A stretch of DNA of 64,000 bases, from positions 1 to 64,000 of the forward strand of contig JAHJGO010000025.1 of NCBI GenBank assembly GCA_018824405.1, in the 5' to 3' direction. The notes beneath the pieces were generated by a model, which had not been told where the DNA came from, did no database searches, and saw only the letters and a list, made by a program, of their open reading frames with translations. Source of the DNA: Gammaproteobacteria bacterium. GTDB lineage: Bacteria > Pseudomonadota > Gammaproteobacteria > Burkholderiales > Sulfuricellaceae. Shown here one piece after another: positions 1 through 4,449 of the stretch. The translations under genes were made by a program, and so were the position numbers. Position 1 is the stretch's first letter, and every line of letters begins with the position of its first letter.

Positions 1-207
1 ACCAGCTTTGCGCAACGTTTTTTCATCTGTGTAGTAGACGGAGCGAATGACTTCGCGGAACTGCTCCCACGAAAGCGACGGCTCCAGTAGACCATCTGCT
101 TCTCCCCATCCGATGATTATTTGATTTTCGGACAGAGCTTCGGAAACTCTGTCGATACCGCTGGGTGAAATACGTAGCACGAATGCTTGTTGGTTCATCT
201 CTACCAT
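1..207 (-). CDS. Cassette-borne hypothetical protein, N-terminal part (cut by the window edge)
   Basis: An open frame of 69 codons starts at ATG 207 and runs off the left edge, so only the N-terminus is visible. It begins MVEMNQQAFVLRISPSGIDR and continues with a GWGEADGLL stretch. A second in-frame ATG at 198 (MNQQAF) is an equally possible start. The pattern recalls the small N-terminal domain seen in some predicted Mrr-like restriction endonucleases; this is recalled similarity and not proven. The start lies four bases after the R' end of the attC site at 212-274, as expected for a gene in an integron cassette. The C-terminal domain, which would decide the function, is outside the window. 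Confidence 0.55.
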   Translation of the reverse strand, partial: MVEMNQQAFVLRISPSGIDRVSEALSENQIIIGWGEADGLLEPSLSWEQFREVIRSVYYTDEKTLRKAG

Positions 208-211
208 AGTG

Positions 212-274
212 AGCTAACGTAAAGTTGAGGGGCGCCGCGCTTTTGCGGCGTCCCGCTCGAACGCCGGGTTAGAC
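212..274 (-). mobile_element. attC: attC recombination site of an integron cassette
   Basis: Read on the minus strand, R'' is GTCTAAC (274-268), followed by a 5-base spacer, L'' GTTCGAG (262-256), a GC-rich stem around an AAAA loop (near 241-244), L' CTCAAC (229-224), a 5-base TTTAC spacer and R' GTTAGCT (218-212). L'' pairs with L' except for one unpaired base at 259, which is a G on the bottom (here plus) strand, as in folded attC sites. The stop codon TAA of the upstream gene lies inside R'', a common cassette arrangement. The length of 63 bases is within the usual attC range. R' departs from GTTRRRY at one position. Confidence 0.88.
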
Positions 275-628
275 ATATGCCTGCACTAAAAAAAAGCCCA
301 CGAGCGGCACTAAAGCAAAAAGCACTACTACACCGAGACACCCTGATTTAGAACTGCCGCGAGAGGAAAACTGCTCACGCTCTAGTGGTGGGCGAGACTG
401 AAGCCACTTAGCATGGCACTCTTTGCAAAAGAATTTTGTTTTGTTATTTCTCCAAGCTTCAATGGTGCGCTCAGTGTGTGGGGAAAATGTTCCACACCGT
501 GAACACTTGAATTGTTTTTCTTTGGGCTGGGACTTTGGCAAAAGCTTACCCACAAAGGTCAACAAAACGATGCCCGCGATACCAATGCCGATAATGATTT
601 CCGGTGACATTTAATTCCTTTTGTCTAA
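218..628 (-). mobile_element. Integron gene cassette (one gene plus attC)
   Basis: The interval between the two predicted G/TT cleavage points (629/628 in the upstream GTTAGAC and 218/217 in the attC R' box) defines a 411 bp unit. It holds a single gene (269-610) with a 13-base leader after the upstream core site and then its own attC. Gene and attC share the orientation expected for a cassette read from an upstream site on the right. No integron integrase gene is visible, so this is either the end of an array whose integrase lies elsewhere or an integrase-less cassette cluster. Confidence 0.8.
269..610 (-). CDS. Small membrane-anchored zinc-ribbon protein in an integron cassette
   Basis: This 113-residue protein has a hydrophobic N-terminal segment (about 4-21), a cytoplasmic-looking central region with a four-cysteine zinc-ribbon pattern (CSRCG at 36-40 and FCKECH at 61-66), and a second hydrophobic segment near the C-terminus (about 92-110). 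The two membrane helices would place the zinc ribbon on one face of the membrane. The start ATG at 610 follows an AAGGAATTAA leader directly after the upstream GTTAGAC core site, and the TAA stop is embedded in the attC R'' box. I do not recognise a family with known function. Cassette proteins are often lineage-specific, so the role is open. Confidence 0.8.
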   Translation of the reverse strand: MSPEIIIGIGIAGIVLLTFVGKLLPKSQPKEKQFKCSRCGTFSPHTERTIEAWRNNKTKFFCKECHAKWLQSRPPLEREQFSSRGSSKSGCLGVVVLFALVPLVGFFLVQAYV

Positions 629-640
629 CCGTAAAGTAGA
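623..640 (-). mobile_element. attC/attI half-site bounding the cassette
   Basis: On the minus strand the sequence ends TCTACTTTACGGTTAGAC. It carries a perfect GTTRRRY core (629-623) and a TTTAC spacer like that of the neighbouring attC. No matching R'' box was found on the other side, so this is either an attI-type simple site or the surviving 3' half of an attC whose cassette was deleted. Confidence 0.6.
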
Positions 641-879
641 CACCCTAAAAAGCACCGGAAAAGGCGCCTTCGAGGTGTATAAACTGGTTTCAATGTCGCA
701 ATGCCATGTATTTAATGAGGCTGGAATTATGGCGCCCCCTAATTTTCCAGATAAAAGCACCACAGAACATCCTCCCAAATTGCTAGGTCAAGTAGACAAC
801 AAATTGCATAGCATTTGCAGCGGCCAAACTTATGTCGAATCAATTAAACGCCATATCCCGTTCCACGGCAAGCGGGCTG
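641..879. other. Non-coding junction between cassette array and chromosome
   Basis: About 240 bases without a convincing gene. The only open frame (plus strand) lacks an ATG start and shows no family resemblance. A 10-base palindrome AAGGCGCCTT lies at 661-670. No integrase, attI direct repeats or second attC could be recognised. The stretch is the boundary between the cassette array and the ABC exporter operon. Confidence 0.5.
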
Positions 880-2085
880 TTATTTCTGCCGTTCCCTGAT
901 CTCTTTGTCGTCGCTGACGCTGTCCCCAGGATGGACAATGACTTTTTCGCCCACCTTCAACCCCTCCTGCACCACCGCTTCCATCGCGCCGCGGCGGGAA
1001 AGCTTCACGATTCTTTTAGCCGCCCGGTCCTCGCTGGCCACGAACACCGCCCATTGATCCCCGGCGCGGAACAGGGCGCTGACCGGTACCTTGACGGTCT
1101 TGTCGAGGCTGGCGGTGATGATGCGGGCGTCCACCTTGTAGCCGTCGCCCAGGGTTTGCCAGCGTTCGGCGGGGGAGGAGAGGTCGATGATGACGTTGAC
1201 CCGCTGTTCCTCCACGCCGAGGGCGGAGACCTTGGTGAAGGCGGCGGGCTCGACGCGGCGCACCACTCCTTCCAGCGTTTCGCTCCGACCCCAGCGCTCG
1301 AAGAGGACTTTTGCACCGGGGGAGATCTGCACGGCGTCGCTGCTGAGCACGTCCACCACCACTTCGAGTTCGGCGGGCTGGCCGATTTCCAGCAGCGGGG
1401 TGCCGACACTCACGGCGAATTCGCTTTCCTGCAGCACTTTCAGCACCTTGCCGGCAACCGGGGTGCGCACTTCCCACTGCTGGCCGCCGGCTTGCTTGCC
1501 GCTGGCTTCCTGTTGCATCCGGAAGAGGGCGGCGCGAGCGACGGCGACCTCGAATTCTGCCGCCTGTTCGCCATATTTCGCGGCTTCAAGTTCGCGCTGG
1601 TTGAGCTTGACAGTCAGTTCTGCCTGTTCCAGTGCGGCGGCGGAAACGAAGTTTCTCTGCGCCAGCTTGCGTGCGCGCTCGAGGTCGGCAGCGGATTTGT
1701 CCAGTGCGGCGCGTGCTCTGGCCACTTCTGCCGAGGCGCGCTGCTTGCTGGCCTCCGAGCTGCCGACGCGTTCGCCCAGTTCGCGCTCGGTGCGCGCATC
1801 GAGCAGGGCAGGGGCGCTGGGGACGATCACGGCGACCGTGTCGCCTTCCTTTACGCTGTCGCCTGCCTTGAGCGTGATGCGCTGCATCTTGCCGGCGAGC
1901 GGGGCGGAAACGACGTAGCGCTCGCGCACGCGGGTCTTGCCGTCTTCCTCGATGGTCTGTTCGAATGGACCCTCGCTTACCTCGGCCAGCTCCACCAGCA
2001 CGGGCTGCGGGCGGAATGACCACACCAGCACCCCGATGAACAGGGCGCCCAGCAGGATCAGGAGGATGCGTTTGGATGTTTTCAT
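880..2085 (-). CDS. HlyD/MacA-type periplasmic adaptor (membrane fusion protein)
   Basis: This 401-residue protein has one N-terminal membrane anchor (about residues 7-25) and then the order typical of efflux adaptors: a biotinyl/lipoyl-like half (VVSAPLAGKMQRITLKAG), a long Ala/Glu/Arg-rich coiled-coil hairpin (about 100-185), the second lipoyl half (VRTPVAGKVLKVL) and beta-barrel/proximal domains. Such adaptors link an inner-membrane ABC exporter to an outer-membrane TolC-like channel. It is the last gene of a three-gene leftward operon and begins 3 bases after the permease stop. No outer-membrane channel gene is nearby, so a TolC homologue elsewhere is presumably used. The substrate cannot be inferred. 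Confidence 0.88.
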   Translation of the reverse strand: MKTSKRILLILLGALFIGVLVWSFRPQPVLVELAEVSEGPFEQTIEEDGKTRVRERYVVSAPLAGKMQRITLKAGDSVKEGDTVAVIVPSAPALLDARTERELGERVGSSEASKQRASAEVARARAALDKSAADLERARKLAQRNFVSAAALEQAELTVKLNQRELEAAKYGEQAAEFEVAVARAALFRMQQEASGKQAGGQQWEVRTPVAGKVLKVLQESEFAVSVGTPLLEIGQPAELEVVVDVLSSDAVQISPGAKVLFERWGRSETLEGVVRRVEPAAFTKVSALGVEEQRVNVIIDLSSPAERWQTLGDGYKVDARIITASLDKTVKVPVSALFRAGDQWAVFVASEDRAAKRIVKLSRRGAMEAVVQEGLKVGEKVIVHPGDSVSDDKEIRERQK

Positions 2086-2088
2086 TGT

Positions 2089-4449
2089 TTATTCCCTTGT
2101 CTTTAATACCGCGACCAGGTCGAGGTGGTCAACCCGGTGGCGCACGATCAGTGCGCTTGCCACCCCGGCAATCACGATAGCCAGGGCAGCATAGGCATAG
2201 GTGGCGGAGGTGATGATGACGGGGATTTCGATGGTCTCCATCGGCATCAGCGCGACGATCAGTTGCGCCAGAAGATAGCCCAGCCACAGCCCCAGCGGAA
2301 TCGCCAGGGCGATTTCGAATGCCAGCTCGCCCAGCAGCAGGGTGGAAACTTCGTGGCGGGTGAAGCCCAGCACGCGCAGGCTGGCCAGTTCCCAGGCGCG
2401 CTCGGCGAGCGAGATGCGGGCGCTGTTGTAAACCACGCCGACGGCAATGGCGGCGGCAAATGCGGTCACGATGGCGGTGAAAAACAGCAGAAATTTGCGG
2501 TTGGTTTCGCGGAAGCTTCTCAGCATTTCATCCTTGATGGCAACCGTGGCGACCTGGGGCATCTGCTTGATGCGGGCATAGAATGCGCTGGCCTGGGACG
2601 GGTCCGGTTTCACTGCCACGGCGGAGATCGATTCTCCTTCTCCCATCAGGCGGTTCAGTGCGGCGATGTCCATGTAGGCCGAAAGTCCGAGCATGTCGTT
2701 GACCAGGGCGCTGACCACGGTTTCGCGTTTGGCGCGGGTGGCTTCCAGCGATTCCAGCATCAACCGGTCGCCGGGTTTGACGCCCAGGCGCTGGGCCAGA
2801 CGGCGCGAGAGCAGGATGCCCTCGCTCGGCAGGAACACGGGGCGCAATTGGGTATCCAGCAACTGGCGCAGATCGGCATCCGGCGGGTAGCCCGATACGG
2901 CGGTGCGGTAGGTGCGGTGCCCCGCCCGCAGGCGCACCGGCACGGAGCGCATTTCCTCGCTGCGCAGCACGCCCGGCAGGCGGGCGATTTCATACAGGGC
3001 GGTGCGGGAAACCGGCGTGGTGAAGGTGACGGTGACATCGGCCCGTTCTGCGGCATTGAACTGCACTTCCATCAGGTAATCCATGGAGTCGCCCCAGAAG
3101 GTGCCGGAAACGATGATGGCCACTGCGCTGGCGATACCGAAACTGGTCAGCAGCGTGCGCAGCGGGCGGCGTTCCAGGGTGCGGATGACCATGCGTGCCT
3201 GGGGCGAGAGCAGGTGCGCCAGCCCGAGCTTTTCCAGCAGCATGCGCCGGTAGTGGGTCGGGGCAGGCGGGCGCATGGCTTCTGCCGGGGGCATGGAAAC
3301 GACCCTGCGCACAGCGCCGTAAGCGGCGCCCATGGCGGCAGCCAGACTGATGCCCGAGGCCACCAGCATGATCCAGGGCTGGATGCGATAGATCAGGCGC
3401 GGAAAATGGAAAAAAGTGGTGTACAGGTCGGTCATCGCGTAGCCCATCCAGGCTCCCACGGCCACGCCCAGAAGGATGCCGCACAGCACGATGGCCAGCA
3501 CCAGTTTGAGGTAATGGACGGCGATGGTGATGTCGGCATAGCCCAGTGCCTTGAGCGCTGCGATCTGGTCGCGCTGCGTGGCCACCTGGCGGGTGAGCAC
3601 GACGTTGAGCAGGAACACCGCCACGCCGAGGAAAATGGTCGGGAAAATCGTGGCCATGGTTTTCTGCTGGTTGATTTCCTGGTCCAGGATACGGTGAGAA
3701 CTCTGCTCCTTGCGCCCGTGTGCGTTGAGGCTGCCGTAAGGTTCGAGCAGCCGGTCGAGCGCGTCGATCACTGCCGCCTCGCTGGCGCCGGGCGAGAGGC
3801 TCAGGGTGGCGTGGTTGAAGGCGCCTTCCATGTCGAAAGCGCTGGCCAGGCGCTCGTGCTCCATCCACAACACACCGAAGCCCCTGTCGTCAGGAAGATC
3901 GCCTCCGCGCGAGGCAAAAATGTACTCGGGCGAAAGCACGATACCGACGATTTCCAGTGTCTCGCGCTTGCCGTTCAGCAGCGCGACGACATGGTCGCCG
4001 GGCCTGAGGCCGTGCGCCTTGGCAAAGCCTTCGGAAACCAGCGCCTCATTGCGCTTGCCGTGTTCCGGAAAGCGGCCCTGACGCAGGGTCAGGTGATTGA
4101 GGCCGGGCTGGCTGCCGTTGCTCAGGCCGATCATGCGCCCGATGACGGGCTCGGCCACATTCTCGATATCGAGGGTCACATCCTGCACGACGCTGGTTTC
4201 CAGCGCCGCGACGCCCGGCAATTCGGCGATCTGCTGTTCCACCGCCCTGGGCGCGCTTTTGATGCTGGCGAAGACCTGGGCGAAGCGCGCTTCCTCGTAA
4301 TAGGACTGGCGCGACCATTGCAGCGAATCGTAGGTGGAGAGCAGGGCGATGAAGGCCCCGATGCCGGCGGCGACCACCAGGGCGATGGAGAACGCCTGGC
4401 TCTTCATGTGCCAGAGATCGCGCAGCAGCTTGCGGTCGATGGTTTTCAT
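2089..4449 (-). CDS. ABC exporter permease with two FtsX/MacB-type halves
   Basis: At 786 residues this is a double-length FtsX-family permease. It has an N-terminal helix (about 17-37) followed by a large MacB-like periplasmic domain, a three-helix FtsX bundle (about 265-385), a second anchor helix and periplasmic domain, and a C-terminal bundle (about 655-780) containing the ELASLRVLGFTRHEV coupling stretch. Fused double permeases of this sort work with a separate ATPase and an adaptor, using mechanotransmission rather than classical transport through the bilayer. The ATPase is encoded upstream and the adaptor downstream in the same operon. Lipoprotein, peptide or drug export are all possible. 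Confidence 0.88.
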   Translation of the reverse strand: MKTIDRKLLRDLWHMKSQAFSIALVVAAGIGAFIALLSTYDSLQWSRQSYYEEARFAQVFASIKSAPRAVEQQIAELPGVAALETSVVQDVTLDIENVAEPVIGRMIGLSNGSQPGLNHLTLRQGRFPEHGKRNEALVSEGFAKAHGLRPGDHVVALLNGKRETLEIVGIVLSPEYIFASRGGDLPDDRGFGVLWMEHERLASAFDMEGAFNHATLSLSPGASEAAVIDALDRLLEPYGSLNAHGRKEQSSHRILDQEINQQKTMATIFPTIFLGVAVFLLNVVLTRQVATQRDQIAALKALGYADITIAVHYLKLVLAIVLCGILLGVAVGAWMGYAMTDLYTTFFHFPRLIYRIQPWIMLVASGISLAAAMGAAYGAVRRVVSMPPAEAMRPPAPTHYRRMLLEKLGLAHLLSPQARMVIRTLERRPLRTLLTSFGIASAVAIIVSGTFWGDSMDYLMEVQFNAAERADVTVTFTTPVSRTALYEIARLPGVLRSEEMRSVPVRLRAGHRTYRTAVSGYPPDADLRQLLDTQLRPVFLPSEGILLSRRLAQRLGVKPGDRLMLESLEATRAKRETVVSALVNDMLGLSAYMDIAALNRLMGEGESISAVAVKPDPSQASAFYARIKQMPQVATVAIKDEMLRSFRETNRKFLLFFTAIVTAFAAAIAVGVVYNSARISLAERAWELASLRVLGFTRHEVSTLLLGELAFEIALAIPLGLWLGYLLAQLIVALMPMETIEIPVIITSATYAYAALAIVIAGVASALIVRHRVDHLDLVAVLKTRE

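Follow-up and report, generated by a model that had tools for sequence, protein, structure and literature searches.

The left edge of the window, by which we mean the whole stretch of 64,000 nucleotides analyzed here, very probably carries the attI end of a chromosomal integron that has decayed. Contig C6, at the end of which the window starts, belongs to an assembly of 3.03 Mb in 29 contigs. Read leftwards, the locus comprises an hlyD-type gene, an intI stump on the opposite strand, attI, cassette 1 with its attC site, and a cassette 2 broken at a transposase element. At the level of sequence, comparison establishes an attC (by homology and a covariance model), an attI (by homology), the truncation of intI, and a complete intI elsewhere in the genome. 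The proposal of an earlier note that the attC indicates integron cassettes is supported. The head of the integron, which the note missed, lies to the right of the attC, where cassette 1 is preceded by attI and an intI remnant at 623-875. The features are as follows.

1-207, minus strand: 5' part of the cassette 2 ORF, which runs off the contig and continues on contig C18 to about codon 90, followed by a Y1-type transposase element
212-274, minus strand: attC site of 63 nt (boxes read directly, fold, comparison with relatives, and covariance-model match)
274-268, minus strand: R'' box, GTCTAAC
267-263, minus strand: spacer CCGGC between R'' and L''
262-256, minus strand: L'' box, GTTCGAG
229-224, minus strand: L' box, CTCAAC
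223-219, minus strand: spacer TTTAC between L' and R'
218-212, minus strand: R' box, GTTAGCT
269-610, minus strand: cassette 1 ORF of 113 aa, with no family above cut-off and its stop codon within R''
623 to about 690, minus strand: attI, from an alignment of copies, with the core GTTAGAC at 629-623 (minus) and a conserved tract from 631 on
729-875, plus strand: intI remnant by tblastn (IntI residues 1-53 of 332, 56.6% identity, E 1e-10)
880-2085, minus strand: HlyD/RND-type periplasmic adaptor gene, which borders the intI remnant as a neighbor outside the integron

Our analysis confirms that 212-274 is a genuine, complete attC site. The consensus boxes R'' (RYYYAAC) and R' (GTTRRRY) are present together with inverted L boxes, R' departing from its consensus at 1 position; between L'' and L' lies a GC stem with AAAA in its loop, and the TAA stop codon of the ORF at 610-269 occupies 271-269. 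These boxes, the stem and loop, the 5-base spacers on both sides, and the stop of the upstream gene within R'' had all been claimed beforehand, and direct reading of the minus strand bore them out. The single extrahelical G of that description was an undercount: in the centroid DNA fold, the bottom strand (the plus strand of the window) forms a 16-pair hairpin plus 5 R pairs, with an unpaired spacer and three extrahelical bases (T251, G255, and G259), all on one arm. Folding thus returned the hairpin with its extrahelical bases but an energy that is not significant (-16.0 kcal/mol, z -1.5, 17 of 200 shuffles equally good; -14.2, z -1.15, for the opposite strand). Fold energy by itself is weak evidence for an attC, and the strong support for the site at 212-274 is comparative. 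According to PMC2727003, cassette attC sites leave two or three bases extrahelical and carry in L'' a conserved G, with a T 6 to 8 bases away. The window site is like them in the order R''-L''-L'-R', the unpaired spacers, and the extrahelical bases, and its G259 (the G in L'') and T251, eight bases away, fit; set beside that description, it is short at 63 nt and has nothing distinctive.

For the comparative test, we built a covariance model from 30 aligned attC sites of relatives, with the window site excluded. The training sites were hand-picked at 60-70 nt, and longer sites, one 54-nt site, accidental-looking matches, and some others (e.g. L074:2188-2256) were left out. This author-built model matched the window at 212-274 with 76.7 bits (E 7e-17), in a test that is not wholly independent because one training site (L068:1892-1954, genome G020) is about 95% identical by DNA to the window attC. 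Double changes in the 30 training sites occupied 96 cells versus a shuffled mean of 42.2, with 0 of 500 shuffles as high, while the number of pair types in the alignment gave no support (247 of 500 shuffles as high). Within the 64-kb window, 212-274 was the sole model match at E ≤ 10 and the only attC-like site in our consensus-rule scan; the latter covered 23 loci, 20 of them from relatives and picked for matches there in earlier searches, and found many attC-like sites. An Rfam scan of the window at gathering scores gave no match. By DNA, the attC unit of about 60 bp recurs by itself in relatives at 76-95% identity, with many copies in arrays near intI, the counts being lower bounds since the best 5 matches per genome were taken.

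On its right, cassette 1 directly adjoins attI, as the first cassette of a complete integron does. Eleven attI copies, the window copy included, could be aligned. In attI, the window copy matches the functional consensus at 54 of 59 positions, where functional copies reach 91-98%; the leader matches at 28 of 35 and the intI part, which contains a 12-base gap, at 111 of 153. An extra base at the crossover, C630, is absent from the other 10 copies. Positions 630-873 of the window are 72% identical to C7:706-961, which holds the attI and the start of the complete intI. The full intI of a complete integron is represented at the locus by residues 1-53 of 332 only, the match stopping at window 875 (residue 53), a few bases short of the hlyD-type gene, which ends at 880. 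As the local intI has no catalytic domain, the window locus cannot move cassettes by itself. The phrase "structurally complete" in the earlier note is accurate for the attC; it does not extend to the integron, which has a truncated intI of its own. The integrase gene expected near the locus was found, with attI, on the right (623-875), if only as this remnant, and a model match at the locus exists, but no further attC appeared leftward in the first 20 kb of C18.

The stump has counterparts in the genus. An intI-like stump lies at the same hlyD-side place in two congeners, G001 and G002, as their DNA alignments demonstrate: both align through the intI/hlyD junction (window 824-2400 with G001, 844-2085 with G002). 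As the stump is short in these congeners and its protein match is weak in G001 (E 0.15) and absent in G002, it is the DNA alignment that supports a common relic. In G005, two attC sites take the place of the stump next to hlyD, and the hlyD stretches of G001, G002, G008, G012, and G014 hold no attC match at E ≤ 1. An integron would have occupied the hlyD-side position before the split of the window genome (G000), G001, and G002, and would have decayed differently in each. The locus represents a recognizable late stage of decay, with docking site, cassette, and attC surviving longer than intI; the intI stump dates back far enough to be present in sister species as well. A Y1-type transposase element like the one at the cassette 2 break lies near the G001 hlyD locus (L129:270-1080).

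Homologues of cassette 1 were found in 3 of 398 other genomes of an order sample (E ≤ 1e-6), and two loci emerged when named genomes were scanned, one on a G044-like contig and one on a Chromatiaceae contig. The homologue in G089 has an internal stop and a weak attC match at its end (18.3 bits, E 0.05); neither the homologue of G044 nor that of the Chromatiaceae contig has an attC-model match. The G044 homologue (L080:1866-2235) lies between unrelated genes, one of which we take to be nifE, and is flanked by two R-like boxes 17 bases apart that are perhaps a collapsed attC. Three copies of cassette 1 gave Ka values of 0.16-0.20 with Ks at or beyond saturation, and these values point to purifying selection. 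In a plasmid collection, the sole match to cassette 1 is partial, at 41%, on a Halomonas plasmid, and window 150-900 has no DNA match; viral contigs contain no cassette 1 relative. A promoter scan of window 1-1000 found none, and we claim no cassette promoter.

Contig C18 overlaps the first 127 bases of the window, and the C6-C18 join rests on those 127 bases. The first 90 residues of cassette 2 align with the PADLOC candidate PDC-S02 (E 1.8e-9) over its positions 1-83 of 334, so that about three quarters of such a gene, together with its attC, is missing where the transposase element starts. Cassette 2 was found in 0 of 299 other genomes. The element at the break matches Y1_Tnp with 52.8 bits (cut-off 23) and a REP-associated model with 65 bits, below the cut-off of 80; it is located on C18 where cassette 2 breaks off (L015:190-1000) and has GGGGACAGACCACGG-like ends. 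A cytochrome-like gene on C18 was tried as a test and was unhelpful, its congener homologues reaching just 43-49%.

The complete intI of the genome, with an attI of its own, lies on contig C7 (TIGR02249, 489.2 bits; cut-off 265) beside what we take to be a recO-like gene. It is the sole match over the cut-off in the genome, and only an above-cut-off match was counted as intI, since TIGR02249 also matches 14 control genomes, none above the cut-off. Cassette sites are scattered as well: with the best 150 of 2150 candidates scored, the genome has at least 10 attC-model matches at E ≤ 10 on seven contigs, nine of them at E ≤ 0.0033 (at least 1 on C6, 2 on C24, 2 on C12, 2 on C27, 1 on C19, 1 on C14, and 1 on C29). 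Across the family, at least 21 of 22 genomes have matches at E ≤ 0.01, these counts likewise being lower bounds, as the best 150 candidates per genome were scored. A second intI fragment, comprising residues 32-110, adjoins two attC matches on C12 (L016:7702-8739), next to a gene that looks to us like a shortened radC. The idea that this fragment completes the window stump (residues 1-53) was considered and rejected: where the two overlap they differ, and we take them as separate relics. Contig C24 carries two attC cassettes (L097:6294-7498), one with an acetyltransferase-like gene (weak matches below cut-off) and the other with a gene pair that by eye presumably is of the BrnT/BrnA toxin-antitoxin kind. 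The integron-bearing contigs C7, C29, and C27 end in one common IS end sequence (L014:1-139, L101:1-139, and L098:3840-3972), presumably IS3-type as judged by eye, which probably explains the assembly breaks of these contigs.

That only a single attC was found at the locus, in the window plus C18:1-20000, counts against a decayed integron, and other origins have to be weighed. A solitary cassette might have landed at a secondary chromosomal site (attG-like) rather than at an attI, in keeping with attC matches scattered over seven contigs and with a G044 homologue of cassette 1 that has no attC-model match; yet attI and the intI stump directly precede cassette 1 here, and as the attI alignment already disfavors such an origin, we hold it to be very unlikely. 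An assembly artefact at the contig end is just as improbable. The attC does lie close to a contig end, 212 bases away, and the terminal 127 bases there are shared with another contig, but attC, cassette 1, attI, and hlyD all lie inside one contig, and the stump beside hlyD is present in two other assemblies. The fold z-score of only -1.5 would suit a chance or terminator-like hairpin that mimics an attC, a reading to which we give almost no credence in view of the model E value of 7e-17, the identity to attC sites of arrays, the stop codon in R'', and the position of the site between the attI-linked ORF and the next ORF.

For the attI end of a decayed integron, then, cassette 1 would have been inserted through IntI-catalyzed recombination of attI with the folded bottom strand of attC, and the IntI of C7 may still be able to recombine this attC. 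A further reading, which we regard as possible but doubtful, is that the C7 IntI continues to act in trans on the attI at 623-690 and that the local intI was already gone when cassette 1 came in. The complete intI in the genome is compatible with such service, as is the state of attI, kept at 54 of 59 consensus positions versus 111 of 153 for the intI stump. The attC is 95% identical over about 62 bases to the site in G020, a genome of another genus, whereas between congeners the intI/hlyD stump is less alike (85% over 48 bases, G001), but similarity of attC sites between genomes can have other causes. Cassette 1 DNA was found, among the matches listed, in 0 of the 7 other genomes of the genus. 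Against the reading, the extra base C630 at the crossover may harm attI, and attI and its leader have diverged in parallel: relative to the functional copies, mean identity is 0.867 for the window attI and 0.671 for its leader, compared with 0.891 and 0.737 among the functional copies. Given this parallel change, the comparison shows no special protection of attI and does not favor service in trans.

Other attI copies of the window type bear on the same question. Seven of the 12 have a complete intI alongside and one (G011) an intI containing a stop; the remaining four (the window, G013, G014, and G004) show either a stump or no intI at all in the stretch examined, G014 and G004 being less certain as intI-less because the former copy is near a contig end and the contig of the latter was covered only in part. 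At these intI-less copies there are 2 attC matches in G013, 6 in G014, and none in G004, so that attI copies with no adjoining complete intI do carry cassettes in G013 and G014, but the G013 genome has no IntI match at E ≤ 1e-60. Tentatively, and with the odds against it, the family may have orphan attI platforms, some attI sites outliving their intI and continuing to take up cassettes through an IntI whose gene lies elsewhere; a single integrase would then serve several docking sites in a genome. If the window attI is still served in trans, surveys that use intI as their starting point miss cassette loci that are active.

Decayed chromosomal integrons are already on record (PMC2426708 and PMC12444791), as are scattered attC sites, and the window locus is a further case. 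Like the pseudo-integrons with decayed intI of PMC2426708, it has a decayed intI at a fixed chromosomal position, but its stump appears common to three species, while the pseudogenes there are usually not shared by close relatives. The Xanthomonas integrons at ilvD with truncated intI (PMC12444791) are alike in fixed-position decay; ours lies beside an hlyD-type gene. The locus also resembles a CALIN in having a cassette and attC with no functional local intI and an intact intI elsewhere in the genome, and the literature says that such arrays can be mobilized in trans. It differs in retaining attI and in having one attC (none in C18:1-20000), where a CALIN has at least two without an integrase.

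IS1182-type elements were also seen at attC-like cores. On C14 of the window genome, an attC match runs into an IS1182-family transposase element (L100:1203-2899; NF033551, 277.1 bits, cut-off 270). Among 300 genomes searched, 14 contained copies, 17 in all (E ≤ 1e-80, protein identity 46-100%); the loci seen are L100:1203-2899, L151-L167, L081, L131, and L143-L150. Earlier exact matches to the end motif, in six genomes, were at attC-like cores in 7 of 8 cases, the exception being on C19 of the window genome. IS1111-family elements that target attC are known (PMC11187229), and a literature search by title found none on IS1182 with attC. The terminal repeat was located at 29 of 34 possible ends, two of them with two mismatches, and under a scoring rule set after the pattern had been seen, 27 of these 29 ends have GTT or AAC as their triplet at a fixed offset (background 2.8%). 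The sequences suggest that the IS1182-type group may be an attC-targeting IS group outside IS1111. In 11 of 17 loci, attC matches end at the edge of the element (L151, L152, L153, L154, L156, L158, L159, L160, L162, L165, and L166), two of these matches being weak (L158, E 0.022; L160, E 0.077).
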